From Haloterrigena salifodinae (GTDB taxonomy: Archaea > Halobacteriota > Halobacteria > Halobacteriales > Natrialbaceae), in NCBI RefSeq assembly GCF_003977755.1, contig NZ_RQWN01000004.1, positions 124,001 to 188,000 of the forward strand: a stretch of 64,000 nucleotides of DNA. Reading direction: 5' to 3'. Shown piece after piece: positions 3,001-23,295 of the stretch. Positions within the stretch are counted from its first letter, which is position 1. Every line of letters begins with the position of its first letter. The position numbers were made by a program, and so were the translations under genes. Below the pieces are notes generated by a model. That model was not told the origin of the DNA and did not search any database. It saw only the letters and a list, made by a program, of their open reading frames with translations.

Positions 3001-3089
3001 TCGCGCCGATTGACGTGGCCGATGCTGTCGGTACTAGCGGACTGCTTGTGGTTCTCTGTCACGGTTCGAGAGTCTATCACCATTAACAT
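1..3089 (-). CDS. Exported LamG protein with two tandem GH32 fructan-hydrolase domains (C-terminus outside window)
   Basis: Open frame entering from the window edge, so the C-terminus is missing. It begins at ATG 3089 (in-frame ATG also at 3083). A twin-arginine stretch (NRRDWLQMF) followed by a hydrophobic alanine/glycine segment near residues 27-55 predicts Tat export. A LamG/concanavalin-like domain follows. Then comes a first GH32 five-blade propeller (start near base 2120: WMNEPHG, then FRDP and WELP) with its beta-sandwich. A second GH32 domain starts in the same frame near base 640 (WMNDPNG, WRDPN, WECPDLF). GH32 enzymes hydrolyse beta-fructosidic bonds in levan, inulin or sucrose. The first domain has Glu in place of the usual nucleophile Asp in WMNDPNG, while the second is canonical. 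The frame was checked as continuous across the junction near base 700. Export plus two catalytic modules suggests an extracellular fructanase. The substrate is inferred from neighbouring levansucrase and transporter genes. Confidence 0.88.
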   Translation of the reverse strand, partial: MLMVIDSRTVTENHKQSASTDSIGHVNRRDWLQMFGGIAVSASIGGALTGSVTASHTESKIGDWPLDEGSGDSTVESVAEYRKHVAYKGDRDPLWVDGKGQNGLLFDGYTTWAAWEADELAPEFSQELSELTIDTWVAPCSHGSESNYIDPIIEKRDRSAQQGFTFGVDNYGHWTFQVGLGDSWEEIWVKSDDLIDVYEWNHLTAVFDGNAGSLQLYKDGTLVAENSTPTGTIGPVDVALKLGRNSQMDYIGEGKDVWKQNMFNGAVSQLETYDAALSGSEIQSKHNNEIGDLTATGYQELTVNPQQYDGDNYRPEYHAIAPTHWMNEPHGPLYFDGKYHLFYQHNPKGSYWRQIHWGHWVSDDMVHWNPVEEALRPEEGIDPAGCWSGDAVVDADGCPKLLYTAGLTEGTDDQAIAEATSTFPEDDDVALTDWNKQGVVMRQPDDPDLMKNEFRDPHVWQENGEWYCLVGSGLQNGGGGTVLAFHSTDCVNWNYEGRALQLDSPDDYPHLGDNWELPVLLPLGTDANGNEKHVLCISPQGGDTEVWYWIGTWDTANFEFVRDHQDPLLIDEGDFHFTGPSGFVDPQTGRSILFTIAQDHRKEQLWHDSGWAHNAGTPMELSLRDDGRLGIAPIGEMESARSEKLLDMNDADPALVDDALENLTANTVELQLEIESNGATEYGFYSHHSPDGEEKTLVYYDESTGEIKTDRNQTSQDSTLMEAEQDKSNLTTQGPVDVGSDNLRLRAFIDKSLIECYVNSLKSVTTRAYPSRDDSTELRLYRDGDITVRSIEIWEMEDIQNGQPSSERYRPGYHFERESGWMNDPNGLVYHDGTYHMFYQAGESRRRWDHAISTDLVNWTEQGTKIPDTDSVQAYSGGAVVDVNDTAGFGENTIVTMYTGHHDGGEEDQRIAYSTDGGDTFTKYGGNPVLDEDTGNWRDPNPFWYDPTGNWRMVVARVEGNGPDRPAGIEIYESDDLKNWTYLSTYESDGVAWECPDLFELPVENADERRWVMTVSVDADHVEHHVGQF

Positions 3090-3237: not shown

Positions 3238-4206
3238 TCACTTGTGTGAAGTGTGAGAGTCCACGAATTCGGAGATCATTTTCCAGTCCGGTGGCCGTTC
3301 CATCGCTCCCGTCGTAGTCGCCGAGATCGCAGCAGACGCGTTCGCAAACCTGACGATTCGGTCCAGATCGGCAGTCCTTCGCGCAAGCGCGGCGACCGTT
3401 GCGGAGACGAACGCGTCACCCGCCCCAGTCGTGTCGACCACGTCGACATCGAATCCTTCGTGTTCGACGGTGCCGTTGCCCCATGGCGCGTCGGCTGTCG
3501 CGTACGCCATGGCTCCCTCATCGCCACGCGTAAGAAAGACAGTGTGCGGACCGTCCCGGCAGACTACTTCGCACCGTCGATTGAGCGACTCCTGCCTGTA
3601 CCCGAGTTGTTCCAGCTCATCGGGCGTCGCCTTGAGGACGTCGGCCATCTCGACCGCGTCTTCGAGGACGCCCGTATCGTCGTCGTCCCACAGTTCCGGA
3701 CGCCAGTTCGGATCGAAGTACACGGAACAGTTCGCCTCTCGTGCGCGCCGTAGCAGATCGAACACGGCTGATCGAGCTGGCTCGGCCGCGAGTACGACGC
3801 CGCCGACGTACACCCACTCGATCTCCTCGAGCGTGCTCGTCGGAACGGCGCCGGTTTCGAGTTTCGTATCGGCAGTGCCGTCGCGATAGAACGTGAACGA
3901 TCGGTCCCGTGTTTCGTCGTGAGCGACGAACGCGAGGGTCGTCTTCGCTGTGGGATCCTGCTCGACGAACCGTGATGGAACGCCACGGTCGTCCAACGTT
4001 TCGATGAGAAAGTCACCGAACCCGTCTTCGCCGACTCGAGTCCAGAACAGCGGGTCAGCACCGACCGCTGCGAGACGCGCTGCGACGTTGGCCGGGGCGC
4101 CGCCGGCGCGGCGCTGGTACGACTCCACGCCGCGGAGCTCCCCCGGTACCGCAGGCAGCATATCAACGAGTGTTTCGCCGACCACGAGGATATTCTGGTC
4201 ATCCAT
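3238..4206 (-). CDS. PfkB-family carbohydrate kinase, probable fructokinase
   Basis: 322 residues, normal length for the ribokinase/PfkB family. The N-terminal GETLVDMLP strand and GGAPANVA substrate-side motif are present. The C-terminal DTTGAGDAF motif holds the catalytic aspartate and anion hole near residue 265. It would phosphorylate a sugar, most likely fructose, using ATP in the cytoplasm. It starts 3 bp after the stop of the GfcR-like regulator gene at 4210-4839, so the two are almost certainly co-transcribed. In a locus with a levansucrase and three GH32 proteins, fructose is the most likely substrate. 2-keto-3-deoxygluconate or another ketose cannot be excluded from sequence alone, because PfkB members diverge in specificity. 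Confidence 0.9.
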   Translation of the reverse strand: MDDQNILVVGETLVDMLPAVPGELRGVESYQRRAGGAPANVAARLAAVGADPLFWTRVGEDGFGDFLIETLDDRGVPSRFVEQDPTAKTTLAFVAHDETRDRSFTFYRDGTADTKLETGAVPTSTLEEIEWVYVGGVVLAAEPARSAVFDLLRRAREANCSVYFDPNWRPELWDDDDTGVLEDAVEMADVLKATPDELEQLGYRQESLNRRCEVVCRDGPHTVFLTRGDEGAMAYATADAPWGNGTVEHEGFDVDVVDTTGAGDAFVSATVAALARRTADLDRIVRFANASAAISATTTGAMERPPDWKMISEFVDSHTSHK

Positions 4207-4209
4207 CAG

Positions 4210-4839
4210 TCATTCCTCCGCGGTTAGATTGACCAGTGTAATCAGCGACCTGACCGGGACGTCGTCGACGCGGTCCGTCCCGTTCTTGTCGACGATGACG
4301 GCACAACCCCTGACGTTACCTCCCTCGTTCTCGACGGCCCGAACGGTCTCAGAAATCGTTGTTCCCGACGTTATCATGTCGTCGACGACGTAGCAGTCGG
4401 CGCCGTCGACCGACGAGAAGTTGTGGGAGAATGAGCCACTGTACTCGTCGATATCTCCCTTTTCCCAGCGGTGTTTCCGCGGGGTGTAGGTACTGAGATC
4501 GACCTTTAGTTCGCTCGCGACGGCCGTCGCCAGCGGGACGCCCGCCTTTTCGATCCCAACGACGAGGTCAGCATCTCCGTCCGTCAAGAGGACGTCGGCC
4601 AGTATTCCGCCAAGGTGGTCGAGTCGGCGGCCGTTCTGGCCGACGGTACTCCAGTCAATGTGGATGTCCTGCGGAGACTTCGGGCGTTCGTTGGGCTGTT
4701 CAGCGTCCGGCGTCGCTCGTTCGATGAGCCAGCTAGCGGTCTCGCGGGAGACGTTGAGTTCGTCCGCGATCTCTCCCCTGGAGAGTCCGCTCTCAGCCAA
4801 ACCGGCGGCTTCGCTCACGAGACTATCGACGTTCTTCAT
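4210..4839 (-). CDS. GfcR-like transcriptional regulator (HTH plus phosphoribosyltransferase-type domain)
   Basis: 209 residues. A helix-turn-helix occupies about residues 18-42 (SRGEIADELNVSRETASWLI). A type I PRTase-fold domain follows, with the PRPP-loop pattern VVDDMITSGTT at 151-161. This architecture is that of haloarchaeal GfcR, once called a PyrE2-like protein, which in Haloferax regulates sugar-catabolic genes and uses the PRTase fold to sense a sugar-acid phosphate rather than for catalysis. This copy is directly followed by the PfkB kinase gene (3-bp gap), so it is probably a local paralogue controlling the fructose/fructan genes. An AT-rich element about 30 nt before ATG 4839 could be the TATA box. 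An active orotate-type phosphoribosyltransferase is the less likely alternative. Confidence 0.85.
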   Translation of the reverse strand: MKNVDSLVSEAAGLAESGLSRGEIADELNVSRETASWLIERATPDAEQPNERPKSPQDIHIDWSTVGQNGRRLDHLGGILADVLLTDGDADLVVGIEKAGVPLATAVASELKVDLSTYTPRKHRWEKGDIDEYSGSFSHNFSSVDGADCYVVDDMITSGTTISETVRAVENEGGNVRGCAVIVDKNGTDRVDDVPVRSLITLVNLTAEE

Positions 4840-4932: not shown

Positions 4933-6183
4933 TCATGATCGGTACGTCGCGGCCAGTTCGTTCAGTGCGTAAATCGCTCGCAGCATCTCGGAGCTCTTCC
5001 CCTCGTCGAACACCAGTTCGTCGGTCTCGCGGACGAAGTCTAGGACGTCGGTAGAGGCGTGTCCGGGGGCGGCGGAGATCCCGGTCCCCGTTTCCGTGAG
5101 CCAACGCATGACTCGGAGATCGCTCTTGCTGTCGCCCATCGCAACGGCGAACGGGTCGTCGATACCGAGCACGTCGAAGGCGGCTTCCACGCCGGCGACC
5201 TTATTCAGTTCGAGGCTGCCGATCTCCGCGGCGTCGGCCTCGTAGTACGCGACGTCGATGCGCTCGAAGAGTGCACTCACATCTTCCGGAACGTCACTAA
5301 CCTTACACTCAGAGGCCTCCTTACGCTCAGTGAGGACGCCGTCAATCTCGGGATCCGCGTCGGCGTAGAACGCTTTCGTCCACTGGCGTCCCTCGTCGCT
5401 CAAGTACCCTAACTGCGTCGCCACAGCGTCGCCAAGCAGTTCGAGCTGATGGACCAGCCCCGCGTCGATGATCTCTCGAGCTCGTTCGGAGCCGATCTTA
5501 AAGTTCGGCTTCACCGTGATGTTGAACTCGTTACCCTGTAGGTGGCAGTTCCGCCGCAAGTCTTCGGGGGCGTCCGAGAGCACACGTGAGCGAACCGCGT
5601 CGAACACGTCAACGATGTCGTCGTCGAGCGACTCATAGAGTAGCCGTTTCGTCTCCGCACCGTGTTCAGGTGTGAATACGCCGGTTCCGGCCTCGTAGAC
5701 GATCGAGAGGTCGCCCGAGTGGACGATTTCGCTTCCGAGCCCTTGTATCATGAATCCCTTGACGTTTTCCAAGGTCTGCCCGGTACAGATCACGATCGGA
5801 ACGCCGCGCTCGTGAAGTTCCGTCAGGAAGTATAGCGTGTCTCGCGGGATCTCGTTGTCGGTCGTTGACGCTGACCGGAGCGTCTCGTCGACGTCGAGGA
5901 CCAGTGCGTTGATCGGACGTTCGTACTTGTTGTACAGATCGAGTGCGGTGAACGCCTGGGTTTCCGTCGCGTGTGCGGCGATCTCCGCGTAGGCGTCTCC
6001 GTTCGGGAAATTCCGCCGAATCTGGGTCTTCTGCTGGTCGAGGTCGTCTCGAACGGACTCCCACTGCTGCAGGGAGACTTGTGAATCGAGCGCCGGGAAC
6101 ACATTGACGAGATCCTGACGTGCCCTGAGCGTCTCAGTGTCGGTACTATCGTACAGTCCATACAACTGACTATAAACTTGCAC
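4933..6183 (-). CDS. HAD-superfamily sugar-phosphatase-like protein
   Basis: 416 residues. All four HAD motifs are visible: LVLDVDETL (nucleophile D97, acid/base D99), ICTGQT near residue 132, a lysine in LNKVAG, and MGDSKSD near residue 370. The insert between motifs II and III fits the Cof/sucrose-phosphatase (IIB cap) type. About 90 N-terminal residues before the HAD core look helical and have no obvious family. The start is GTG at 6183, supported by a TATA-like tttatatc about 24 nt upstream, which implies a leaderless transcript. It lies between fructan hydrolase and kinase genes, so it probably dephosphorylates a sugar phosphate. Whether that is sucrose-6-phosphate, fructose-1-phosphate or something else cannot be read from the sequence. 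Confidence 0.75.
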   Translation of the reverse strand: MQVYSQLYGLYDSTDTETLRARQDLVNVFPALDSQVSLQQWESVRDDLDQQKTQIRRNFPNGDAYAEIAAHATETQAFTALDLYNKYERPINALVLDVDETLRSASTTDNEIPRDTLYFLTELHERGVPIVICTGQTLENVKGFMIQGLGSEIVHSGDLSIVYEAGTGVFTPEHGAETKRLLYESLDDDIVDVFDAVRSRVLSDAPEDLRRNCHLQGNEFNITVKPNFKIGSERAREIIDAGLVHQLELLGDAVATQLGYLSDEGRQWTKAFYADADPEIDGVLTERKEASECKVSDVPEDVSALFERIDVAYYEADAAEIGSLELNKVAGVEAAFDVLGIDDPFAVAMGDSKSDLRVMRWLTETGTGISAAPGHASTDVLDFVRETDELVFDEGKSSEMLRAIYALNELAATYRS

Positions 6184-6250: not shown

Positions 6251-8515
6251 TCACTCGTATGCGCTATCCAGTTCCCAGACGTCCAATCGCTGGACGGTCA
6301 CATCACCGTCCGCCCACGCCTCGATTCCGGTCGACCGCTCATCCTCCGGATACAGGCGAGTAGTGACACTCTTTAGGCTGTTCACGTATACCTCGAGCAT
6401 CGACCCGTCGAGGTACACTCGTAGTTCGAGGTCCTCGCCGTCGCGGTCGACCTCGCCACGGTGGACGAGCGAGCTTCGCTCCGAAACAGTCGCCCGTGTT
6501 TCGGCGTTTCGAGTGCTGTGTTCGCGGTGGACGACGATCCGCTCCGTCCGTTCGTCGTAATATATCAGCGTCTCCTCGGACCCATCAGGGTTCGCTCTTA
6601 CCTTCAGCCCGTACTTCTCAGCTCCGTCAGACGCCATTGTTGCTCGAATCTCGACTGCGGTTCCGCCAACGCCGTCCAGTTCGTCGTTCGCATTTGAGAC
6701 CTGCACGTTCCGGATCTCGGCGAGTCGCTCGGCTCGGAGCGATCGCAGTTCCTCAATCGGTTCGATGCCGAGCCGACCGTCGTCGCGAAGAAACAGGTGT
6801 ACCGGGAGACCGCCGTTGTGGGCCCATCCGGCGTCATAGTGATCCCGCGGACGACGGTCGTCCTGTGCAATCGTGAATAGGAGGCTCCGACCCGTTTCGG
6901 GGTCGACAATACCGTGAGGACCAGTGAAGTGAAACCCCCCGTAATCGATACGTCGCGGGTCCTCGTGGTCCGGAACGAACCGACAGGCGTCGGGGTCCCA
7001 CTCGCCGAGCCAGTAGTACACTTCCACTTCCGCGGCGCCCTCAATCGGACTGACGATGAACGCGTACTTCTCGGCGTCGGTCTCGTCTTCGCCAATCGGC
7101 AGCAAGACGGGCAACTCCCAGACGAGTCCGAGCTCCGGGTACTCGTCGTGATCCGTTCGATGGAGACAACCCCGGAACACCCACTCCGCCAAGCTCTCAG
7201 ACTCGTATACAAGGGCCGCACCGCCACCGGTAGCGAATCCGGAACCGACGAGACAGTACCACGTCCCGTTCTCCCGCCAAACGAACGGGTCGCGAAAGTC
7301 GTTGTCCCGAAGCCCGATCGAATGCGGGCGCTCGATCGCGGACTCGTCGTCCTGACGCCAAGACGTCAATTCGGGGTCGTCGGGATCAACAGGGGACGCT
7401 ACCACGACGCGCTGATCGGGAGTGCGGTCTATTTCTCCCGCGGTAAAGAGGAGAACAGGGTCCCCGTCCGCGTCGTGAGTCGACCCGCCGGACCAGATCC
7501 CATCGGGAGCCAGTCCGTCGCGTTCGGGCGCCAGTGCCGGTTTAAGGTGCCGCCAATGGACTAAATCGTCACTCACCCAGTGCCCCCAATGGATATTGCC
7601 CCAGTACGGTCCGCTGGGGTTGTGCTGGTAGAACAGGTGGTACTGGCCGTCGTGATACAGCGGTGCATGCGGTTCGTTCATCCAGTGACCAGGCGGGATC
7701 GGATGGTACTGCGGACGATGACGATCTCCGCGATATCGCGACGGATCGAGGGCGATCGTTTCGTAGTTCATCGAGGGGTGTTCGTCGTGGCACGGCGTCT
7801 CGTACCGCTCGCGGACGTCGGAGGCGGTGAACGCGCAGTCATAGATTTTGAGTTCGTCGATCGCCCCTGAGAAGTTGTGTAAAGCGAACGTGTCGTCGAC
7901 GCGTTCGGTTCGGTTGTTCTTTCCAATCAGAACCGGGACGTCGGCCGGGACGATCATGCTCCCCTCGGGAACTCGTTCCACTGCGGTGCATGCGGCGTCG
8001 ACGTAGAGTCGGAGTGAACCGTCGTCGCCCTCGAAGACTGCTGCGACGTGCGACCAGGAATATTTGGGTAGCGGTGATTCCGTCTGGACAGCCACCCACG
8101 TGTCTCCCAGTCCGACTTGGAACGAGCACCGGCCGTGTCCGTCGAGTCCAAACTCGAACCCGCGGTTATCGTCGACCGAGTGGTTGCTGACAATCGGGGA
8201 GAGACGCTCTGACGACTGACCCTCGAACGCTCGGGGGGCGATCCACGCTTCGACCGTGAACTCGGTCGTATCTCCGTCGAGAATCTGCCGGTCGTGTTCG
8301 ATTTGCGTGGAGTAACCATCGAACAACAGTCCGCTTCCCGTGACGCCGTCAATCCATCGCGGATCACTATCCGATTTGAACCGTGCGTCCGCGAACGCGT
8401 GCTCGACCGCGTCTCGGCATCCGGACACGACTTCCTCGGCGGACGAGCCCTCGCTTTCGTCGAACGGCCAGTACGCTACGACACGGCGGTTATCGCTATC
8501 GTCTCGGTCGGCCAT
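6251..8515 (-). CDS. LamG-GH32 beta-fructosidase without export signal
   Basis: 754 residues. An N-terminal LamG domain spans about residues 10-240. The GH32 propeller starts at HWMNEPHAP (276-284), with FRDP at 407-410 and WELP at 466-469, followed by a beta-sandwich to the end. The catalytic nucleophile position in WMNDPNG is Glu (E281) here; the transition-state Asp (D409) and acid/base Glu (E467) are kept. No Tat or Sec signal is visible, so the protein probably stays in the cytoplasm and would act on imported fructo-oligosaccharides or sucrose. It is closely similar in layout to the first GH32 domain of the exported protein at 1-3089, so the two look like paralogues. It is divergent from the TrmB-kinase regulator at 8670, and a shared control region of about 150 bp lies between them. 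Confidence 0.88.
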   Translation of the reverse strand: MADRDDSDNRRVVAYWPFDESEGSSAEEVVSGCRDAVEHAFADARFKSDSDPRWIDGVTGSGLLFDGYSTQIEHDRQILDGDTTEFTVEAWIAPRAFEGQSSERLSPIVSNHSVDDNRGFEFGLDGHGRCSFQVGLGDTWVAVQTESPLPKYSWSHVAAVFEGDDGSLRLYVDAACTAVERVPEGSMIVPADVPVLIGKNNRTERVDDTFALHNFSGAIDELKIYDCAFTASDVRERYETPCHDEHPSMNYETIALDPSRYRGDRHRPQYHPIPPGHWMNEPHAPLYHDGQYHLFYQHNPSGPYWGNIHWGHWVSDDLVHWRHLKPALAPERDGLAPDGIWSGGSTHDADGDPVLLFTAGEIDRTPDQRVVVASPVDPDDPELTSWRQDDESAIERPHSIGLRDNDFRDPFVWRENGTWYCLVGSGFATGGGAALVYESESLAEWVFRGCLHRTDHDEYPELGLVWELPVLLPIGEDETDAEKYAFIVSPIEGAAEVEVYYWLGEWDPDACRFVPDHEDPRRIDYGGFHFTGPHGIVDPETGRSLLFTIAQDDRRPRDHYDAGWAHNGGLPVHLFLRDDGRLGIEPIEELRSLRAERLAEIRNVQVSNANDELDGVGGTAVEIRATMASDGAEKYGLKVRANPDGSEETLIYYDERTERIVVHREHSTRNAETRATVSERSSLVHRGEVDRDGEDLELRVYLDGSMLEVYVNSLKSVTTRLYPEDERSTGIEAWADGDVTVQRLDVWELDSAYE

Positions 8516-8669
8516 ATCAGATGGAATGCCTCGTAATCATAAAAATACCACCCGTCTGTCGGACCGTCGATGGTGAGCTCGCAGCGGCGACAGCAGAGCG
8601 CGCGGACGGTTCCAACGTCGGTACTGACGCTCACAAACTACTATACTCCTCTAGTTCTTCGACAAGAGT
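8516..8669. promoter_or_regulatory. Divergent promoter region between GH32 and TrmB-fusion regulator
   Basis: 154 bp separating two divergent genes. On the plus strand, ctatact at 8641-8647 lies about 25 nt before ATG 8670, the spacing of a leaderless archaeal TATA box. On the minus side an AT-rich stretch at 8537-8548 is placed for the GH32 gene. The layout suggests that the regulator controls its own gene and the hydrolase; this is inference. Confidence 0.45.
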
Positions 8670-10898
8670 ATGAGTGGTTACGAGAACCTCGACGTATCCG
8701 AAATACGCGATTCGCTGCAACGCCACGTCGATATGTCGGAGTACGAGTCGCAGGTGTATCTCGCGCTCGTTCAAAACGGAAAGCAATCGATGCGAGACCT
8801 ATCCGAGGCGAGCGACGTCCCAAAACAGCGCGTATACGACATCGTCGAGGAACTCAGGGAGCAGGGCTTCGTCGAGCTCGACGACAGTTATCCCAAGAAG
8901 GCGTACGCGGTCGATCCCACGAAGACGCTTGGCCCGATCCAGACGCACGTCGAACAGGTCCAAAACGCGCTCGAGGAGTTTCACAAGTCGGTGTCCGACG
9001 TCGATAGCGGCGTCGCACAGTTCAGGAACCAGTCGACAATCGAGAAGTACATCTTCGAACTCCTCGACAGCGCCGAACGGACGATCTTCCTGATGACGTC
9101 CGTCGATCGACTGCAGATCTTCGAGGACGCGCTACGCGACAACTCCGACGTCCAGATCCGCGTCGTACTCACTGATCTCGACGAGGGGCACGTCGTCGAC
9201 GACCGTATCGAACTCAACAGTCCTATCCGCGAGTTTGCCGACTACGTCCGGGGGACCGTTCGTAGCGAACCGCTCGTACTCAGTGTGGATCGAAGTGCCG
9301 GGTTCTTTTGGCCGAGTACTACCGACGCACGTCGCCAGCCTCAGGAGGGATTCTACGTCACCGATGAGGAACTCGCGTTCATGTTCGATCGGTTCCTCTC
9401 GGACACGGTCTGGCCGCTCGGGTATCCGGTCAATCCCGATCAGCGCTGCTCTATCACGCTTCCGCAACGGTACTATCGGATCCACGATTGCCTCTCCGAC
9501 CTCGAGGTACTCACCGACTCCGTTCCCCTCCGAACTCTGACAGTCCGGTTCGAGGGGTACGACAACGTGACTGGCCAGCAGACCTCTCGAGAGGGCCGAC
9601 TCGCCGGGTACTACGCGCCGGAGTTCGATGACCAGGCGTACCTCGAAGTCGACATTGTTGAGGGCGACGATGAGCAGTCTCTGACGGTGACAGTCGGCGG
9701 CTGGCACTCGCGTCAGGAAGACTACATGGCGACGAGCATTGAACTGGAGAAACACGAAGACTGGTCCGCTGAAGAACTCGACGACGAGACGCTCGCACAC
9801 ATCGAGACGTGCCGGACGGAGCTCCCCGAGGAAATCGCCGGCGACGTCATCGTCGGCTTCGACGGTTACATCGACTATATCAGATCACTGGTCGGGGAAC
9901 GGAAGAGTCCTCGAATGTACGATGAGATCAGCGAGTTCGACACGCTGCGAGAGATGATCACGAGGGCATCGGCTCAGGACAAGACGCTCCAGTTCGAGTG
10001 GGTCGAGAGCAGGCGCTTGCCCGGCGGCCACACTGCCCACGTCGGACAGGTACTCGATACGGCCGGATACGATACTGAACTCGTCGGGTTCTTCGGGCAG
10101 CCGATTCGGAACGAGTTCAGCGACGCGTTCGACGACGACGCGCTCCTCAGCCTGGGACAGCCGACCGTGACGGAGTATCTACAGTTCGGCGACGGGAAGG
10201 TCCTGTTCACCGACTCCAGTGGACATCAAGCGTTGAACTGGGAAACGCTCAGAGAATACGTGCCGCTCGAAGATATCGTCGATCGACTCGACGAGACTGA
10301 TCTCGTGAGCATCGGCGGCTGGGCGCTCATCCCCGAGATATCGACGATCTGGGAGGGAATCTACGAGCAGGTGTATCCGCTGCTCTCGTCGCCGCCCGAC
10401 GACATCATCGTCTGTACGAGCGACGTGCATCGCCTAACGGAGACGACGCTCCGGTCGGATCTGGAGTCGTTGAGTATCCTCAACGATGCGATCCCAGTGA
10501 CGGTCGTGACGACCAGCGAACAGGCCGCACACTTGAGTGACGCTCTTCTGTCCGGCGACCGGGGGAAGCGAGCGCTCCACGCAACGGCAGAGTCACTTTG
10601 CCGCGAGATCGGCGTGTCTCGGGTCGCGGTGACCGCTGCGAAAGAGTCCGTCCTCGCCGGCCCCCACGGGAGCCAACGGATCCGATCGGCCCTGATTTCC
10701 GACCCGGCAGAGGAAGGGACGTTTGAGGATCACTTCAGCGCAGGTATCGCCCTGGGTCGCGCCGAGGACCTCTCGGACACATCGACACTCGCACTCGGAA
10801 TCGCAGTGGCGAGTTACTTCAAACAGTACCAGGAGACGCCGTCTCTGTCTGATATTCGGACGTTTCTCGATACCTATGAGGATCAGGGACCGGCCTGA
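8670..10898 (+). CDS. TrmB-family regulator fused to a C-terminal ribokinase-fold (PfkB-like) domain
   Basis: 742 residues, about twice a normal TrmB. A winged HTH lies at about 20-80. A phospholipase-D-like TrmB middle domain follows at about 110-250 (LLDSAERTIFLMTS). A TrmB C-terminal sugar-binding-like beta domain covers about 275-370. From residue 390 there is a separate domain resembling ribokinase-family kinases: GDVIVGFDGYIDYI (391-404), GGHTAHVG near 452, and FEDHFSAGIALG (685-696) where the GAGD catalytic loop should be. The conserved Gly-Ala-Gly before the Asp is replaced by Thr-Phe-Glu, so the domain may bind sugar without phosphorylating it. TrmB proteins repress or activate sugar genes on binding sugars. 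The placement between fructan hydrolase and importer genes makes this the likely local sensor-regulator. Confidence 0.82.
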   Translation: MSGYENLDVSEIRDSLQRHVDMSEYESQVYLALVQNGKQSMRDLSEASDVPKQRVYDIVEELREQGFVELDDSYPKKAYAVDPTKTLGPIQTHVEQVQNALEEFHKSVSDVDSGVAQFRNQSTIEKYIFELLDSAERTIFLMTSVDRLQIFEDALRDNSDVQIRVVLTDLDEGHVVDDRIELNSPIREFADYVRGTVRSEPLVLSVDRSAGFFWPSTTDARRQPQEGFYVTDEELAFMFDRFLSDTVWPLGYPVNPDQRCSITLPQRYYRIHDCLSDLEVLTDSVPLRTLTVRFEGYDNVTGQQTSREGRLAGYYAPEFDDQAYLEVDIVEGDDEQSLTVTVGGWHSRQEDYMATSIELEKHEDWSAEELDDETLAHIETCRTELPEEIAGDVIVGFDGYIDYIRSLVGERKSPRMYDEISEFDTLREMITRASAQDKTLQFEWVESRRLPGGHTAHVGQVLDTAGYDTELVGFFGQPIRNEFSDAFDDDALLSLGQPTVTEYLQFGDGKVLFTDSSGHQALNWETLREYVPLEDIVDRLDETDLVSIGGWALIPEISTIWEGIYEQVYPLLSSPPDDIIVCTSDVHRLTETTLRSDLESLSILNDAIPVTVVTTSEQAAHLSDALLSGDRGKRALHATAESLCREIGVSRVAVTAAKESVLAGPHGSQRIRSALISDPAEEGTFEDHFSAGIALGRAEDLSDTSTLALGIAVASYFKQYQETPSLSDIRTFLDTYEDQGPA

Positions 10899-10956: not shown

Positions 10957-11238
10957 TTAGCGGTCCGTGACGACGAGGAGACCCCAGAGAGCCATGACGA
11001 ACAGGAGACAGATTCCGAGCGCCAGAGCTGCCGCGCCGAGTAGCCCCGCAGTCTGGTGGGCGAGTTTCGTGTTGTCTGTCAGTGGACCAGACGCGGCATC
11101 GACCGTCGCTCCGAGAACGGCCAGTAGGACGGTCGCCCCGAACGTGTACAATAGCGCCCGGTACTGATCGAGCAGGATACGGACCCGGCTGCGCTCCCGG
11201 CCACCTTCGGTGTCCCAGTCGGTGTCGTTCACGCTCAT
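10957..11238 (-). CDS. Small two-helix membrane protein of the importer operon
   Basis: 93 residues with two hydrophobic segments (about 30-50 and 65-90) and a charged N-terminus rich in Asp, Glu and Arg. It overlaps the stop of the upstream ABC ATPase gene by 4 bp (ATGA-type overlap), so translation is probably coupled. It is the last gene of the oligopeptide-type transporter operon. No family is recognised. A role as a small accessory subunit of the transporter is inferred only from position. Confidence 0.65.
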   Translation of the reverse strand: MSVNDTDWDTEGGRERSRVRILLDQYRALLYTFGATVLLAVLGATVDAASGPLTDNTKLAHQTAGLLGAAALALGICLLFVMALWGLLVVTDR

Positions 11239-13523
11239 CGGTCCTCCCCCCGTACGTCCCCGAAGTGATCGTCCGAGGTCCGCTCGCCGCCGTCCGGTGC
11301 CGTGCGTTCTTCGGGCGGACGGTCGGGTCCGAAGATGGACTCATCGCCATCGGCACCGTCGAGCGGTTCGCTGTCCCAGTAGGGATGGTCACTATCGCAC
11401 TCGCGGAAGCAGGCGATCGCGTGATCGTCCGAACCCCCGCTCGCCGGATCAAGTGACGGACACTCCTCGGTGCAGTGCTTTCGGGCTTTCGGACACCGCG
11501 TCTGGAACGAACAGCCGCTTGGGGGGTCGACGGGATCCGGAATGTCGATGCTCCGCACCGGTAGTTCCCCACTGCTGTCGTCCGGGTCGATGTCCGCCGT
11601 CGACCAGCGAAGAATCTTCGTGTAGGGATGACGCGGATTCTGGATGATTTCCTCGGCGGGGCCGATTTCGACGATATTTCCGAGGTACATCACGCCGATC
11701 CGGCCGTCGACCCTTCCAGCGAGATACCGCGCGTTCTCGAAGTTGTGCGAGATGAACAGGTACGACGTATCAAACCGCTGTTGCAGTTCGAGCATCAGAT
11801 CCATCATCTCGACGCGGAGCGATACGTCCAGTGCACTCACCGCTTCGTCAGCCAGGATCAGGTCCGGGTTCATGAACAGTGCGCGCACGAGCGCAACGCG
11901 CTGTTTCTCACCACCGGATAGCTGGTGTGGGTACCGTTCGGCGTAATCACGTGCCGGAGAGAGGCCGACGTACTCGAGCATCGCGATGGTCCGTTCCCGT
12001 CGATCCTTGAAACTGAGGTCGTCCTGGGCCTGCTTGAGCGGTGTCTCGAGGATCTCCTGAACGCTCCGGTTGGGATTTAGCGAACTTCCCGGGTCCTGGT
12101 GGATGATCTGTAGCGCCGAGCGGATCTCGTCGTAGGCGTCGTCACCGCCGTCGCGAGCCTCCCAGACGTCGACTCCCCGATGCGAAACCCTCCCGTTGGT
12201 CGGTCGCTGGACACCGATAGCAGTCTTTCCGAGCGTCGTCTTGCCACAGCCAGATTCACCGACGAGCGCGACCACGTCGTTCTCGTAGATATCGAGGGTG
12301 ACGTTATTGACGGCATAGACAGTCTCGCTATCGCCAGTGAGTTTCGACCGAAGTCCCGAGCTCTGTTCGAAGTGGACGTCCACGTCGTTGAGCGAGAGTA
12401 CCGAATCATCTGACTGGCGACCTGTCACGACGTCTGTTTCAACCTGTTCGGGGCTTTCGGTCGGATCGAATGGGATCTCCTCACGCGCTCGCTCCCAGTG
12501 GTGACAGGCCGTCTCGTGGTCAGCACTGACGTCGAAGAACGGCGGGTCTTCGGACCGACACTCGCCGGTTGCCAGTGGACACCGAGACGCGTACCGGCAG
12601 CCGGTCGCCGTATTGACTGGATCGGGTGCCTGTCCCTCGATCGGTGTCATCGAGTCTAGTGGCGTTTCAAGGTTCGGGACGGCGTTGAGCAGGTCCCTCG
12701 TGTATGGGTGGGCGGGATCGCGGAGGATTTCGTCGGTCGGGCCGACCTCCGCCATCTGGAAGGCGTACAGGACGCCGATCCGGTCCGCTAGACCAGCTAC
12801 CAGTGGGAGGTCGTGAGTGATGAACACGACGGTGAGATCGTACCGCTCTTGGAGGTTCTCCAGAAGGCCGAGGATAGATCGCTGCATCAATAGGTCGAGC
12901 GCCGCGGTCGGCTCGTCCATCACCAGCACTCGCGGTTTCAACACTAGCGAGAGCGCGATGAGTGCTCGCTGCTGCATTCCGCCACTCAGTTCGTGGGGGT
13001 ACGCATCGAGCACCCGATCGGGATCGAGGTGGAGTTCTCGAAACAGCTTACGCGCGTGGTCCATCCCCGACTTGAGGTCGTGGTCGTGTGCCTTCAGCGT
13101 CTCCGTGAAGTGATCCCTGATCCGCTGGGTCGGATTGAACGAACTCATCGCGCCCTGAAACACCATCGAAATCTCCTTCCAACGGTATCGTTTCAGCAGG
13201 TCACGATCAGCATTCGCGATGTCGACCGGATCGCCGTCCTCGGGGTGATAGATCACTTCCCCGGAGAGTTGGCCCGGATCGACGACCGCGTCGAGGAGCG
13301 CCGAGGCGAACATTGACTTCCCAGAGCCCGACTCGCCGACGACGCCGAGGATTTCGCTCTGGCGGATATCCATCGAGACGTCGTCGAGGACCCGCGACGT
13401 CCCGCGGCCCATATCGAACTCGACCGAGGCGTTTCGAACCTCCAGAATCACGTCTTGGTCAGCTGACTCTGCGTTCGTTTGTCGTACTACTTCGCGTTCG
13501 TGTGTTTCGTAGTCGGAACTCAT
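11235..13523 (-). CDS. Fused double ATP-binding subunit of an oligopeptide/dipeptide-type ABC importer (OppD-OppF type)
   Basis: 762 residues. Two complete ABC modules lie in one chain. The first has Walker A GESGSGKS near residue 60, signature LSGGM and Walker B VLVMDEPT. The second has GESGCGKT near 420, LSGGE and LILADEAV. Each module ends in the cysteine-containing C-terminal extension typical of this subfamily (GCRYASRCPLATGEC and GCSFQTRCPKARKHC), which in related importers can carry an iron-sulfur cluster. It powers the DppB/DppC-type permeases encoded just upstream. A gene order with a GH32 enzyme inside the operon indicates fructo-oligosaccharide rather than peptide cargo; this is inferred. 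Confidence 0.92.
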   Translation of the reverse strand: MSSDYETHEREVVRQTNAESADQDVILEVRNASVEFDMGRGTSRVLDDVSMDIRQSEILGVVGESGSGKSMFASALLDAVVDPGQLSGEVIYHPEDGDPVDIANADRDLLKRYRWKEISMVFQGAMSSFNPTQRIRDHFTETLKAHDHDLKSGMDHARKLFRELHLDPDRVLDAYPHELSGGMQQRALIALSLVLKPRVLVMDEPTAALDLLMQRSILGLLENLQERYDLTVVFITHDLPLVAGLADRIGVLYAFQMAEVGPTDEILRDPAHPYTRDLLNAVPNLETPLDSMTPIEGQAPDPVNTATGCRYASRCPLATGECRSEDPPFFDVSADHETACHHWERAREEIPFDPTESPEQVETDVVTGRQSDDSVLSLNDVDVHFEQSSGLRSKLTGDSETVYAVNNVTLDIYENDVVALVGESGCGKTTLGKTAIGVQRPTNGRVSHRGVDVWEARDGGDDAYDEIRSALQIIHQDPGSSLNPNRSVQEILETPLKQAQDDLSFKDRRERTIAMLEYVGLSPARDYAERYPHQLSGGEKQRVALVRALFMNPDLILADEAVSALDVSLRVEMMDLMLELQQRFDTSYLFISHNFENARYLAGRVDGRIGVMYLGNIVEIGPAEEIIQNPRHPYTKILRWSTADIDPDDSSGELPVRSIDIPDPVDPPSGCSFQTRCPKARKHCTEECPSLDPASGGSDDHAIACFRECDSDHPYWDSEPLDGADGDESIFGPDRPPEERTAPDGGERTSDDHFGDVRGEDR

Positions 13524-13584
13524 GAGTACACCTTCGTTTGCGACGAGTGGCTATCTGCCGTGACCGTCCATTCGAGCGCAATCA

Positions 13585-14583
13585 TCACTTAGCCTCCCCG
13601 CCTTCGTGGCGGTCGCGAACCCTGACATTGACGACACGGTCGAGCCCCTGGGAGAGCATGATGAGTCCCCACGATAGGAGCACGATCGTCAGGAGTGGCC
13701 ACAACACCGTGTAGTACAGCTGTGGCGACGTGACTGCACCGGCGTTGTACGCCTTCTCCAGCATCACGCCCCAGTTGACGCCCTCGACCGGAAGCACCCC
13801 GAGGAAGTACAGCGCTACGGAGTTGAAGATCACTCCTCGCCCCGACATCACGAAATTGACGAGGATAAGCGGGAGGAGCTGCGGCGTGATGTCCTTGCGC
13901 AGGATCGATCCGGTCGAGACGCCCATGATCCGCGAGGCCTCGACGTACGCCTCTTCCCGGATCGTGAGGACCTGAGATCTGAGCGATCGCGCCGTCCCGG
14001 CCCACGCGTTGATCGACACGAGGATACCGACGAGGATCGGGCTGGTCGGCTCCCAGATCGCGCCGACGATGATGATCAGCGGGAGCCCGGGAATCATTAT
14101 CGCCGTGTCAGTCAGCGTCATCAGTATTTCGTCGGCTCGCCCGCCTTTGTAACCCGAGACGATACCGACGAACGCGCCGATCCCGGTAGCGAACACTGCC
14201 CCGCCCATCAGCATTAACAGCATGTCCGGGGTCGCGTGGATCAATAGCGCGGCGATGTCCTGTCCGAACTGGTCAGTGCCGAGCGGGTTCTCGCCGAAAT
14301 AGGACGGACTGTCCCATTTATTCCCGTCCTGATACGTCGGTGACTCGACGAGCCAGACGCCGACCGTTCCGGCAAGGACGAACCCGAACAGGATCAGGAA
14401 TCCGGCCTTGAAACGCCAGTCGGACCACGCCAGCAGGAACGTTTCCCAGTGTCCGCGAAGGTCCTTGGCGATCCGATCGCGTCGGGTGACGTCCTCCACG
14501 GAAACGCTCTCAAGCGGGATCTCCGCCGCGTTGATATCGCCGCCGTCGGCCATCGGATTCCTGTCCTCGTCAGTAGGCTTCAC
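13585..14583 (-). CDS. ABC importer permease, DppC/OppC type
   Basis: About 333 residues with an N-terminal cytoplasmic tail, a first membrane helix at about 60-85 of the protein, then a large extracytoplasmic loop and five more helices. The permease coupling motif region (EAYVEASRIMGVS) contacts the ATPase. GTG 14583 is chosen because a GGTG-rich ribosome-binding stretch lies just before it. GTG 14607 and ATG 14553 are alternatives. The gene overlaps the end of the DppB-type permease gene by 14 bp, so the two are translationally coupled. Confidence 0.88.
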   Translation of the reverse strand: MKPTDEDRNPMADGGDINAAEIPLESVSVEDVTRRDRIAKDLRGHWETFLLAWSDWRFKAGFLILFGFVLAGTVGVWLVESPTYQDGNKWDSPSYFGENPLGTDQFGQDIAALLIHATPDMLLMLMGGAVFATGIGAFVGIVSGYKGGRADEILMTLTDTAIMIPGLPLIIIVGAIWEPTSPILVGILVSINAWAGTARSLRSQVLTIREEAYVEASRIMGVSTGSILRKDITPQLLPLILVNFVMSGRGVIFNSVALYFLGVLPVEGVNWGVMLEKAYNAGAVTSPQLYYTVLWPLLTIVLLSWGLIMLSQGLDRVVNVRVRDRHEGGEAK

Positions 14584-15580
14584 TGGAATCACCCCCGGCA
14601 CCCGCACGCGGATCGATCAGCCCGTAGGTGAGATCGGCGATCGTGACCGCGATGACGACTGCGACCGATATGATGAGGAATCCACCCATCATCAACGGAT
14701 AGTCGCGCGCCGTGATCGCGTTGAAGAAGTAGTACCCGACGCCCGGATACTGGAAAATGTCCTCGAGGATGATCGAACCCCCGAAGATGAACCCGATCTG
14801 GATGACGAAGCCGGTGTAGATCGGGAGGATTGCGTTCCGAGCCACGTACTGGTTCGCGATGCGACTCGTAGGGAGCATCCGCAACCGTGCGACACGGATG
14901 TAATCCTCTCCGAGTACTCTGATACTGTTGCTCCGCATCGCGAGCGTCTGGACGCCGAAGCCCGTGATAATAACCGAGAGCATTGGCAGGGTCGCGTGTC
15001 GTAGCACGTCTACTATGAACGGGAGGTTGAAGCCCGGTGTGACGCCGAGGCTCGTTCTGCCGGAGAGCGGATACATTCCCAGGTTCGTGACGAAGATCGC
15101 GATGAGAATGATCGCCGCCACGTAATAGGGGACGGAGTTCATCACGATTGCGACAGTGCTGACGGCCGAGTCAAGCCGACTCCCCTCCTTGTAAGCGAGG
15201 AGCGCGCCAAGCGAGATCGAAATCGCGAACGTCACGAGCATCGCCGTTCCGAGGACGAACAGCGTCCACGGGATCGCCTCCGCGTAGATCTGGGCGACTG
15301 GCTCGTTATAGTACGTCGATTCGCCGAGGTCGCCCTGAAGGACGCTGGTGACGTAGTTCAGGTACTGCACGTAGATCGGTTCGTCTGGCTTGACACCGAC
15401 GTACGCCTGCACCATCTGGTCGATCTGCTCGGACGGCATGTTCGGATTTTGCTTGCGAAGTTTCGCTCGCATGTAATCGACAGGGCCGCCGGGCATCAGA
15501 CGTGTCAGACCGAACGTGATCGTGATGACCAGCACCAGAGTCACGAACGATCGGATCACACGCTTTACGTAGTAGTTCAT
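14570..15580 (-). CDS. ABC importer permease, DppB/OppB type
   Basis: 336 residues with six predicted membrane helices. The N-terminal MNYYVKRVIRSFVTLVLVI signature and the coupling loop GEDYIRVARLRML are classical for DppB/OppB permeases. It pairs with the overlapping DppC-type gene. A strong GGAGG ribosome-binding site precedes the ATG, so unlike many genes here this one seems to be read from a leadered transcript. AT-rich sequence at 15650-15680 may hold a promoter. Confidence 0.9.
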   Translation of the reverse strand: MNYYVKRVIRSFVTLVLVITITFGLTRLMPGGPVDYMRAKLRKQNPNMPSEQIDQMVQAYVGVKPDEPIYVQYLNYVTSVLQGDLGESTYYNEPVAQIYAEAIPWTLFVLGTAMLVTFAISISLGALLAYKEGSRLDSAVSTVAIVMNSVPYYVAAIILIAIFVTNLGMYPLSGRTSLGVTPGFNLPFIVDVLRHATLPMLSVIITGFGVQTLAMRSNSIRVLGEDYIRVARLRMLPTSRIANQYVARNAILPIYTGFVIQIGFIFGGSIILEDIFQYPGVGYYFFNAITARDYPLMMGGFLIISVAVVIAVTIADLTYGLIDPRAGAGGDSSEAY

Positions 15581-15679: not shown

Positions 15680-17902
15680 TCAATCAAGGTTTATTTCGGG
15701 GTTTGAGGTCGCCTCGGCGCTCGAGTCGTCCGTGAATGCGGACTCCAGCGACCACATGTCTGCCGAGTAGAGTTCGACGGCTCCGCCGACCGCCTCGAGC
15801 GAGACGCCGGTGCTATCGGGCCGAGTCGGGTAGATTCGGCTGCTCACACTGGTTCGGTCGTTGACGAACACTTCGATGACTGAAGCGTCGACGAGCACGT
15901 GCAGGTGCACGATGCCGTCGTCGGACTGGGGTACCTCGTCGATTGACTGCGGATCGGAATTTGCGGCGTCCGAGAGGCTGGAGTGTTCACGATCGACGAT
16001 CAGACGATTGCCGTCCGTGTACCGGATCGATGTTCGTTCCTCGCTGTCATCGGAGCATGCGACGACAAGCTCGAACGCGTCAGCACCGTCAAGTTCCAGT
16101 TCGAGTTGAATTTCCAGTGCGTCGCCAGAGACACCGTCACACGGTGACGGATCGTCCGGGGAGAGCGTCTGACGGTCGATCGTCTCGCGTTCTCCCCGAA
16201 GACGAGTGAGTTCCTCGGCCGGCTGCACTACAAGAGTACCGTCGGACGAAAGCGAGAGCGAACGAGGGACAGACATGGCACCAGACCACCCCGCGTCCCA
16301 CTGCGCGGACGCACTGCGATCCTCACGGATCCAGCCCCACGAGAGGTACCGCCCGTCGCCGTCGGGGATTGATTGGGCGGCGTAGTAGTTCCCGTGATCG
16401 AGCGTCCCCGAGTCCTCTCGGTTGAACGTCTGACCGTCGAACGTTCCGAGGAAGTACGCGACCTTGTCGTAGTTCGAGACCTGCAGCAGCTGCAGGTCAC
16501 CAAAGTCGAGTAGTTCCGGGCACTCCCAGATCGGCCCGTCTTCGTCGCGGTCTCCGACTAGGATTGGACCGACGTACGCCCAATCGAGAAGATCGTCCGA
16601 CTGATACAACAGCGCCGTTCCACCGGCATCCTCGGTCCCGGAGCCGATGAGGTGATACCAGGTTCCGTCCTCCTTCCAGACGTCGTGGTCGCGAAACTCG
16701 GCGTTCCAGTCGTCGTTCGCGAGGATCTGCGGCCGCTCGGGAGGGTCGGTGATGATCGGATTCTGTGGGGACTTCTGCCAGGTATCGAGGTCGTCATCAG
16801 CCGCGCGAGCGAGACAGGGGAGCTGATCATGTCCGTCGCCGCCGGTGTAGACGAACGTGGGGACGTCGTCATCAAGTACCGTACAGCCTGACCAACACCC
16901 GTGCCGGTCCGGTCCCCCTGCGTCGGGCTCTAGCGCGATGGGCCTATCCTCCCAGTGAACGAGGTCGTCGCTCACCGCATGCCCCCAGTGGATCGATCCG
17001 TGGTACGGTCCAGCCGGGTTGTACTGGTAGAACAGGTGATACTCGCCGTTGCATTTGACTAGTCCGTTCGGATCGTTCATCCAGTTTGCCGGTGGCGTAA
17101 AATGGTACGAGGGGCGGTGAGGATCATCGTCAATCTCTGTCCTGACCTGTGTCAGTTCCGCGCCACTCCGCGGTCGAGTGTACATCGCGGCCTCCCCGCG
17201 GGCGATATGCTTGATCGTCCCGCGAAGAATCATCCGAAGTGTCGTCAGGTACTCCGACGGCACGCCATCGAACGTGAAGTGTTGGCCGATACCGACGACG
17301 GTTCCCGCCCCGACTTGCCAGCCGATGACGCTGTTCTCTCGGGGGACGTCCGTCTCACCGACAGCGGCGCTCGCGAGAACCGTTCCACGCTTCGGGATCC
17401 GGCGTTCGTAGGCCACTCGAGGTGTCGATTCGCTACGGGACGGCTGCGTGTGAACGCGGTTTCCGTCACATGACTCGAACAGGTCGGCGTCGGCGAACCG
17501 CGAACCGACCAGGAACCCCGCCGGGCGCTGCCCCCACTTGTGGACTGGTTTGTACGTCTCGTCGATGAGGTCCGGCGGCTGCGGATCGATCCCCAACTCC
17601 TCGACGGTCGTGACTCCGTGTAGACTCAACAGAAGTCCGCCGCCCCCGTCGAGATACGCCATCAATGCGTCGACCGCACCGGAAGGGAACGTTTCGTCCG
17701 CGAAAGAGAGATCACGGTGCCACCAGAGCGCGTCGAACGACGACAGCGATTGTTCCGTCGGTAGATCCTCGAGTGAAACACAATCCACGCCCGCCATGTC
17801 CCGTACAGCTCGAAGCGCTGCGCACTGTTCGTCCGTCAATTCACCCGCGGTCAGAAACCCAAGGCTGGGAGAGTCTTTCGACTCTGAGTCCTCAGCTTGC
17901 AT
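15680..17902 (-). CDS. GH32 beta-fructosidase with N-terminal class-I glutamine-amidotransferase-like domain
   Basis: 740 residues from ATG 17902. An upstream in-frame start at 17935 is rejected because a TATA box (tttatacta) lies about 25 nt before 17902. Residues 1-235 form a ThuA/amidotransferase-like alpha/beta domain (SFDALWWHRD, YLDGGGGLLLSLHG) that may bind sugars but lacks an obvious catalytic Cys. The GH32 propeller follows: NWMNDPNG with canonical nucleophile Asp, FRDHDVW (Pro of the RDP motif replaced by His) and WECPEL with the acid/base Glu. A beta-sandwich completes the protein. No export signal, so the protein is cytoplasmic. It sits between the solute-binding protein and permease genes, which ties imported substrate to fructoside hydrolysis. 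Confidence 0.88.
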   Translation of the reverse strand: MQAEDSESKDSPSLGFLTAGELTDEQCAALRAVRDMAGVDCVSLEDLPTEQSLSSFDALWWHRDLSFADETFPSGAVDALMAYLDGGGGLLLSLHGVTTVEELGIDPQPPDLIDETYKPVHKWGQRPAGFLVGSRFADADLFESCDGNRVHTQPSRSESTPRVAYERRIPKRGTVLASAAVGETDVPRENSVIGWQVGAGTVVGIGQHFTFDGVPSEYLTTLRMILRGTIKHIARGEAAMYTRPRSGAELTQVRTEIDDDPHRPSYHFTPPANWMNDPNGLVKCNGEYHLFYQYNPAGPYHGSIHWGHAVSDDLVHWEDRPIALEPDAGGPDRHGCWSGCTVLDDDVPTFVYTGGDGHDQLPCLARAADDDLDTWQKSPQNPIITDPPERPQILANDDWNAEFRDHDVWKEDGTWYHLIGSGTEDAGGTALLYQSDDLLDWAYVGPILVGDRDEDGPIWECPELLDFGDLQLLQVSNYDKVAYFLGTFDGQTFNREDSGTLDHGNYYAAQSIPDGDGRYLSWGWIREDRSASAQWDAGWSGAMSVPRSLSLSSDGTLVVQPAEELTRLRGERETIDRQTLSPDDPSPCDGVSGDALEIQLELELDGADAFELVVACSDDSEERTSIRYTDGNRLIVDREHSSLSDAANSDPQSIDEVPQSDDGIVHLHVLVDASVIEVFVNDRTSVSSRIYPTRPDSTGVSLEAVGGAVELYSADMWSLESAFTDDSSAEATSNPEINLD

Positions 17903-18115
17903 ATCTATCACACGGTGTTTATAGTATAAAAGCATTTTGGCCTCTATTGAAATCCGAGCAAAGGAAGACCCTAGGTTCCGATTTCCATAGGGCAGATAAC
18001 GATACCTGGGGTGTTTAAGTACTTAACGGGTGCAGCAGCTACTCCACACCGAGGGGCGGTCGGAATCGGGAGCAACACGCTCACGTAACCGATCGTTGCG
18101 AGCCAGGACGTTCGC

Positions 18116-21939: not shown

Positions 21940-23295
21940 TTACCGATTATTTCCGTTCGCCCCCTTGTTCGATCCGCCCGAGGGAAGAAAGTGGCCGTCA
22001 TTAAGTTCGCTGACGACCCGTGTTTCAGTCCCCTCGAGTTGTAGCTTCAGACTCGGCGCCAGCGTCCCACCGAACAGTTCCTTCTGCTCTTCGGGGGGCA
22101 GATGGCCGACCTCGTCAAGGCCGATCTCGCCCCGAGACGTATCGTCGAGTCCGCGGAAGTTCTCGAAGCTTTCGATCAGCACGTCGTTCCCGTGGGGCAT
22201 CGCCAGCCACGAATACGCCTGGAAGGGAGCCGACTCGGGGTTTGCGAGGACCAGTCCGCTCCCGTTGAGCGGTTCGTACTCACCGTAGAGCGAATCGCTC
22301 ACGAACCCGTACAGCGCGTCGGGACCGCTGAGGCCGGGAGCGAACGTAAACTTGTGGCTGAGGACGAACAGATACCACTTTCCGTTATTGAAGACGTAAT
22401 GCGGGCGTTCCAACTGTTGGTTGACCTCGATCGCCTCCAGGTTAGGCGGGAGGAGCTCCCACTCGGTGAGTTCGTCGTTGGTCGCTCGCATTACGCCAAC
22501 GTTCCCGTTGTAGCTTTGCGGATCATCCGGGCTATCGCCTTCCGTGGGCGTGTTCCCCTCGAACACGACGAGATCCTCGCCAGTCTCGGGATGCTCGAAG
22601 TACCACGGGTCACGGAACGCGTAGACGATGCCCTGCTCCCGGGACTGCTCTAGGGTCTGATAGAGGTCCCCGTCGGCTTCACCGATGATAACGTGCTCCT
22701 GGTCACCGGTCAGCTCGACGCCGTGCGGACTGGTCCGGAGGGACGCGCCCTTGCCGAGTGCGAGTCGCTGGCGGAACTCCGGTTCCGGGCTGGTCGCTGT
22801 GTAGAAGTGGTAAATCTGGTCCTCGCTCTGATCGTACATCGCAGAGCCGGCCCACTGGTGGTGCCCAAGCGGGTTCTCGAAGGCCGTCCCGCCCTCCTGC
22901 CAGTCATGACCATTCCGGGAATAGAAGTAGCGAATCGTCGCTTCATTGTGCCGAGCACCCGGCACGAGGTCCTTTGACGCCGTGAGGGAGAAGACGACCT
23001 GCCAGCCGTTGATCTTTGCAATCGAGCCGTCGCGGTATCGAAGCGGCCAGGTGTCCCAGATCCAGTAATCGTCCGAGATTACGTCGGAGTTCTCATTGAT
23101 GACCGGAGCAGTCGTATCGTCTGTAAGTTCGATACTGTTTGCGTGTTCGCGAGTCCACTGGCTCGCTTCACCTGTCTCGAGAGCGGCTCCGGAGCCAGTC
23201 CCAAACGGTAGCGCGAGACCGGCCGCACCAATTGCGCCAGTTGTTTTGAGTATACTGCGCCTGCTTAGCTCAATATTAGCACTCTTATCTACCAT
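21940..23295 (-). CDS. Tat-exported GH68 levansucrase (sucrose 6-fructosyltransferase)
   Basis: 451 residues. A twin-arginine signal (LSRRSILKTTGAIGAAGLALP) occupies the N-terminus. The GH68 catalytic triad is visible: nucleophile D81 in IWDTWPL, transition-state D229 in FRDPWYF, and acid/base E296 in QLERPHYV. GH68 enzymes move fructosyl units from sucrose onto a growing beta-fructan and release glucose, or hydrolyse sucrose. The size and motifs fit archaeal levansucrases. Secretion would put levan synthesis outside the cell, matching the exported fructanase at 1-3089. An AT-rich promoter (ttttagtactatag) lies about 30 nt upstream of the ATG. Levan versus inulin product cannot be told by eye. 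Confidence 0.92.
   Translation of the reverse strand: MVDKSANIELSRRSILKTTGAIGAAGLALPFGTGSGAALETGEASQWTREHANSIELTDDTTAPVINENSDVISDDYWIWDTWPLRYRDGSIAKINGWQVVFSLTASKDLVPGARHNEATIRYFYSRNGHDWQEGGTAFENPLGHHQWAGSAMYDQSEDQIYHFYTATSPEPEFRQRLALGKGASLRTSPHGVELTGDQEHVIIGEADGDLYQTLEQSREQGIVYAFRDPWYFEHPETGEDLVVFEGNTPTEGDSPDDPQSYNGNVGVMRATNDELTEWELLPPNLEAIEVNQQLERPHYVFNNGKWYLFVLSHKFTFAPGLSGPDALYGFVSDSLYGEYEPLNGSGLVLANPESAPFQAYSWLAMPHGNDVLIESFENFRGLDDTSRGEIGLDEVGHLPPEEQKELFGGTLAPSLKLQLEGTETRVVSELNDGHFLPSGGSNKGANGNNR

Follow-up and report, generated by a model that had tools for sequence, protein, structure and literature searches.

A haloarchaeal TrmB-family regulator fused to a ketohexokinase-like domain that has lost its catalytic motifs and may serve as a sugar sensor

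What does a sugar-kinase fold do at the end of a transcriptional regulator? The question is raised by a gene of Haloterrigena salifodinae that lies in the 64,000-nucleotide stretch of DNA analysed here (the window) and that is publicly annotated (RefSeq) as a TrmB sugar-binding protein, a label that overlooks an additional kinase domain. An initial annotation of this DNA described one intact frame of 742 residues, and this description stands: a single frame runs from ATG to stop, with the following layout.

8670..10898, plus strand: TrmB-pseudoketohexokinase fusion gene, 742 aa; single open frame, with full-length copies in other genomes
8715..8918, plus strand: TrmB winged helix-turn-helix, residues 16-83 (PF01978, E 1.6e-18)
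9021..9749, plus strand: TrmB effector (sugar-binding) domain, Regulator_TrmB, residues 118-360 (PF11495, E 2.1e-21)
9777..10877, plus strand: ketohexokinase-like (ribokinase fold) domain, residues 370-736 (PF25270, E 3.6e-96)

Both regulator modules that had been claimed, the winged helix and the TrmB effector region, are present in Pfam terms (66.7 bits against a cut-off of 25.6 and 76.7 bits against a cut-off of 22.2, respectively). In an alignment to 3qph, G344 and E350 of the window protein correspond to G320 and E326 of Thermococcales TrmB, which are among the residues involved in sugar binding and are essential in that protein (PMC4158304, PMC10817205). The ribokinase-like domain had been placed from about residue 390; its fold and family are borne out, and its start has to be moved to about residue 370, the PF25270 profile (Khk, prokaryotic ketohexokinase) being matched end to end (positions 1-365, 323 bits against a cut-off of 35). 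The AlphaFold2 model of this domain has a mean pLDDT of 89 (the model of the full-length fusion is less certain, with pLDDT 80.7 and pTM 0.64), and fold searches, Foldseek among them, match it at Z 25-27 to ribokinase-type structures, with about 280-300 residues aligned, namely 3in1 (Z 27.4, rmsd 3.3, 296 aligned), 1vm7 (Z 26.6) and 1rkd (Z 25.0, rmsd 3.4, 290 aligned), so that the predicted fold is not an unrelated one. The ADP-dependent glucokinase 5o5x scores level with the ribokinases (Z 27.3, rmsd 3.9, 342 aligned) because the folds are shared; an ADP-dependent kinase identity lacks sequence support, the sequence match being to PF25270 only, and a ROK repressor identity was rejected, no ROK profile appearing among the Pfam matches up to E 1. 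Judged by its profile match, the kinase-fold half is a relative of the prokaryotic ketohexokinases.

The architecture belongs to a widespread family. Frames of about 740 residues with PF25270 were sought among the relatives of the window and in 391 genomes of the class, and local comparison located a TrmB half and a kinase half in each of these frames. The 22 fusion loci recovered across Halobacteria comprise 19 pseudokinase fusions, two whose kinase motifs are intact and one with a truncated kinase domain. Full-length orthologs in many genomes rule out a frameshift or assembly error joining two genes near residue 385: the ortholog HTUR_RS20080 on plasmid pHTUR01 of Haloterrigena turkmenica is 96.8% identical to the window protein, and other full-length copies come from Natrinema sp. 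(94%), Haloferax gibbonsii (56%) and Halomontanus rarus (51%), with one further copy at 86% and others at 34-39%. Species of Haloarcula, Halogeometricum, Halogranum and Halomarina are further hosts; in the phylum-wide sample, none of the matches listed lies beyond the order of the window.

Several of the loci have peculiarities of their own. One Haloferax gibbonsii contig carries two distinct fusions about 24 kb apart (L085 and L087), both accompanied by GH32 and transporter genes of their own. The plasmid record of Haloarcula halophila contains the fusion and its cluster twice (L081, 9109-11324, and L082, 8998-11214), one copy being broken in frame (196 + 579 aa); the second copy is either a duplication or an assembly overlap. 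At L086 (9494-11314), the kinase domain ends after about 223 profile positions and is followed by an unrelated gene fragment, and this fusion was probably truncated by rearrangement.

When the TrmB halves are placed in trees with 21-23 ordinary haloarchaeal TrmBs, the fusions all fall into a single clade, with support of 99-100. In the tree of the kinase domain, the pseudokinase fusions group together (100/99) and the three remaining fusions, the two with intact motifs and the truncated one, are placed beside a standalone kinase. A single clade of all fusions is not recovered in this kinase tree, and a tree constrained to contain it is not rejected (p-AU 0.097); a single origin of the fusion therefore rests on the TrmB tree.

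The state of the kinase domain was assessed by comparing 17 aligned pseudokinase fusions with 36 intact kinases (34 standalone and 2 fused); two further pseudokinase fusions, L186 and L187, were added after this alignment, which brings the group to 19. Four motifs are central to the comparison.

9861..9875, plus strand: D398-x-x-x-D402, a retained motif predicted to lie on the sugar side (17/17 pseudokinase fusions have D402 and 16/17 have D398; D402 is also present in 36/36 kinases)
10023..10040, plus strand: GGH(T/V)xH motif, residues 452-457, retained (G452 and G453 in 17/17 pseudokinase fusions, H457 in 16/17)
10512..10523, plus strand: position of the NxxE motif, residues 615-618, lost (T..Q; Glu is present in all 36 kinases and in none of the 17 pseudokinase fusions)
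10719..10730, plus strand: damaged GxGD loop, T684 F685 E686 D687 (none of the 17 pseudokinase fusions has Gly686, against 36/36 kinases)

The motifs quoted in the initial annotation are all found in the window protein (GFDGYID at 396-402, GGHTAH at 452-457 and EEGTFEDHFSAG at 681-692). Its reading of the catalytic loop as a change from Gly-Ala-Gly to Thr-Phe-Glu is right for the generic GAGD loop; the intact loop of PF25270 kinases themselves reads S-(A/S)-G-D. At position 686, the glycine is replaced by Asp or Glu in 16 of the 17 pseudokinase fusions and by Ile in the remaining one, and the catalytic Asp687, present in every one of the 36 kinases, is gone from 10 of the 17 and kept in seven; in L186 and L187 the loop reads VVED and NVDE. 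The damage to the NxxE motif had escaped notice: Glu618 is lost throughout the aligned group and is replaced by Gln in 15 of 17. These losses agree with the earlier description of a dead or slow kinase, so far as sequence can tell. The score against PF25270 is no guide to the state of the kinase and was dropped for this purpose, the pseudokinase fusion L088 scoring like standalone kinases.

The sugar side of the domain has fared differently. The GGH(T/V)xH motif corresponds to GGxxxN, the sugar motif of PfkB kinases, and its GG aligns, in a profile alignment to PDB, with the substrate motif of a 1-phosphofructokinase of known structure; the correspondence rests on this alignment because the profile-profile comparison with the PfkB protein of the window covered no more than the C-terminal third (probability 84%). 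The sugar pocket is a prediction from motif correspondence and fold. As read from these alignments, the residues of phosphoryl transfer are gone from the kinase-fold domain while the predicted sugar pocket persists; its retention could also serve folding.

Loss of the catalytic motifs could be taken to mean that the domain is a decaying passenger of a fusion that was once useful only for its enzyme, and Halomarina offers an example of the two halves parting (see below). This explanation is very improbable. For the kinase domain, dN/dS stays near 0.1 in the window lineage (0.105 and 0.080 in comparisons with its two closest orthologs; 0.14-0.25 in a different lineage), which indicates that the domain is under purifying selection and hence is not decaying; frames are intact in divergent orthologs, and 29 of 95 kinase-invariant positions, those of the predicted pocket included, are still kept. 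Such selection, together with the retained pocket residues, is in keeping with the earlier suggestion that the domain was recruited for another use.

The use in question is suggested by the neighbouring genes, which in the window form a fructan cluster.

3..3089, minus strand: GH32 fructan hydrolase, runs past the window edge (PF00251, E 1.2e-117)
3238..4206, minus strand: PfkB fructokinase-like enzyme (PF00294, E 5.2e-59; top NCBIfam match fructokinase, under its cut-off)
4210..4839, minus strand: GfcR-like phosphoribosyltransferase regulator (NF045507, 301.9 bits, cut-off 300)
4933..6183, minus strand: HAD-family hydrolase (PF08282, E 1.9e-10)
6251..8515, minus strand: GH32 fructan/sucrose hydrolase, divergent neighbour of the fusion gene (PF00251, E 1.4e-60)
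11235..15580, minus strand: ABC transporter, fused ATPases and two permeases (annotated in the orthologous cluster of H. turkmenica)
15680..17935, minus strand: GH32 fructan hydrolase (PF00251, E 6.9e-80)
18116..19969, minus strand: ABC substrate-binding protein (H. turkmenica ortholog annotated)
21940..23295, minus strand: GH68 levansucrase/inulosucrase family enzyme (PF02435, E 7e-90)
23519..24574, plus strand: second TrmB regulator of the cluster, unfused (PF01978 and PF11495)

The four GH32 domains detected in the genome all fall within this cluster, and the divergent arrangement of fusion and GH32 genes recurs in many fusion loci. The GfcR-like regulator sits in the fructan operon; the other copy in the genome that scores above the cut-off is on contig C1 (393 bits). 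Across the family, fructoside-enzyme genes (GH32, GH172 or GH68) adjoin 19/19 pseudokinase-fusion loci and 4/43 controls (4/23 loci of standalone kinases and 0/20 of ordinary TrmBs; Fisher p 2e-12, with counts that are not independent, given that the fusion loci share ancestry and include closely related pairs). GH32 is found in the fetched stretch of 18 of the 19 loci, and the remaining locus has a DUF2961/GH172 gene; the GH172 family includes a characterised fructofuranosidase as well as arabinan-degrading members (PMC8605356). By location, then, the proposed link to fructan genes holds, and control of these genes by the fusion would follow from it by inference.

Taken together, the sequence evidence favours, with some confidence, the reading of the fusion as a TrmB-family one-component transcription factor, the C-terminal half of which would be a former ketohexokinase that now senses fructose. 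Under this proposal, fructose released by fructan hydrolysis, or another ketohexose, would bind the dead kinase domain without turnover; binding would alter the dimer, and the winged helix would bind or release the promoters of the fusion gene itself, of its divergent GH32 neighbour and of the transporter. G344 and E350 being kept, a second ligand, for instance sucrose or a fructo-oligosaccharide, probably acts through the TrmB effector domain. The haloarchaeal ketohexokinase is a fructose-specific kinase with a KM of 3.25 mM (PMC11519228).

Retention of Asp687 in the window protein (loop T-F-E-D) would permit slow turnover, and the domain could be a slow or altered kinase, or a sensor of ATP/ADP plus sugar acting through this residue, in which case the regulator would report turnover or energy state. 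Asn615, His655 and Asn711, kept by part of the pseudokinase group, point in the same direction. All three are, however, absent from the window protein, the anion-hole glycine and Glu618 are lost from the entire aligned group and Asp687 from most of it, and the PfkB fructokinase-like gene in the cluster means that the domain of the fusion need not be the kinase; we consider this possibility quite improbable. The ligand itself might differ from the one proposed: several further residues that are invariant in kinases and adjacent to the sugar motifs, R450 and G399 among them, are changed in the pseudokinase group, as might be expected of a sensor of another effector, for example fructose-1-phosphate or an oligofructoside, whereas the core D402/GG/H457 motif is unchanged in almost all members, which makes such a shift rather unlikely.

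Finally, the domain might be a structural or dimerisation module, with sugar sensed by the TrmB effector domain alone. The haloarchaeal ketohexokinase is a homodimer (PMC11519228), and the effector domain retains its own pair of sugar-binding positions. Nevertheless, Pyrococcus TrmB dimerises without a kinase domain (PMC4158304), and this explanation, which appears unlikely, accounts neither for the retention of the predicted pocket beside catalytic loss nor for the strict tie to fructoside genes.

Candidate regulatory elements were found upstream of some fusion genes. A weak candidate in the window is the following.

8632..8648, plus strand: CACAAACTACTATACTC, a conserved 17-bp element upstream of the fusion gene and a candidate for its promoter/operator (identical in L079)

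This element has one exact site in the window, is unchanged in L079, where the intergenic DNA around it has largely diverged, and occurs upstream of the fusion gene of the window and of close relatives only. In another lineage, the TCAC-N7-GTGA palindrome TTCACAACTATCGTGAGGA is perfectly conserved between the fusion gene and GH32 (L073 11430, L075 11779, L076 11470, L078 8638), and it is a candidate operator of that lineage. A shared operator was sought across the fusion lineages and target promoters and no common site was found; neither element is therefore used as evidence for regulation.

The fusions outside the pseudokinase group bear on how the sensor might have arisen. The two intact fusions, the truncated one and one remnant are located in polyol-dehydrogenase/ABC clusters, where all four have an MDR dehydrogenase and an SDR as neighbours and three of the four an aldolase; Haloarcula hispanica uses a similar gene set for mannitol/sorbitol and fructose (PMC11519228). 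The remnant, from Halomarina BND7 (L184, 7929-9212), is a ketohexokinase with intact motifs and an IclR regulator gene nearby; its N-terminus, VTVGEWKASQEEYEAREVRL, is the tail of a TrmB effector domain, and by this sequence it looks like a fusion that shed its regulator half. In Haloarcula marina (L183, 7992-10103), a TrmB that belongs to the fusion clade is unfused, and a gene for a PfkB-type kinase, with GAVD where GAGD is expected, follows after 40 bp. The intact fusions of the polyol clusters, the truncated fusion and the remnant suggest a path from a kinase-regulator to a pseudoenzyme sensor. The likely history is a single TrmB-ketohexokinase fusion with an active kinase, still found in polyol clusters, in which the kinase died later in the fructan lineage. 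More tentatively, haloarchaea may keep several stages between enzyme and sensor: the standalone ketohexokinase, a bifunctional regulator-enzyme of polyol-degradation clusters in which an active kinase is fused to TrmB, a remnant devoid of its regulator and a fully pseudoenzymatic fructose sensor controlling fructan genes.

If these readings are correct, the fusion is an archaeal gene switch derived from a sugar kinase, analogous in principle to yeast Gal3, and the living intermediates allow the change from enzyme to sensor to be tested within a single, genetically tractable group. A likely regulator of haloarchaeal fructan use would thereby be named and the annotation of a family now labelled just TrmB corrected. 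No description of a TrmB-ketohexokinase fusion was found in the open-access papers searched, and the word kinase does not occur in a review of TrmB.

Among known systems, the closest to the two halves are their haloarchaeal relatives. The haloarchaeal TrmB (VNG1451C; PF01978 and PF11495) has the same order of winged helix and effector domain, and the equivalents of G320 and E326 are kept in the fusion; the TrmB halves of the fusions differ in forming a separate clade and in carrying a kinase domain. The haloarchaeal ketohexokinase (HAH_1078, rrnAC0343; PF25270) is homologous over the full length of the domain and has the sugar-side motifs in common with the fusion, which differs by the loss of the GxGD glycine, the NxxE glutamate and other catalytic positions and by the attached regulator. 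Bacterial HTH-PfkB proteins (PRK09954 family) combine a helix-turn-helix with a ribokinase-fold domain of a different kinase family and have no TrmB effector domain, whereas the ROK repressors (NagC, Mlc) join a winged helix to a sugar-kinase fold, as the fusion does, but are bacterial and of the hexokinase/actin-type fold. Kinase-like sensors and enzyme-derived regulators are already known in principle from Gal3p, the ROK repressors and GfcR. The haloarchaeal GfcR resembles the fusion in that a sugar-gene regulator uses an enzyme-derived ligand domain, in this case a phosphoribosyltransferase of unrelated fold, and yeast Gal3p resembles it in role, as a relative of a sugar kinase that acts as a sugar sensor in gene control, but belongs to another fold family (GHMP), works through Gal80p and carries no fused DNA-binding domain.
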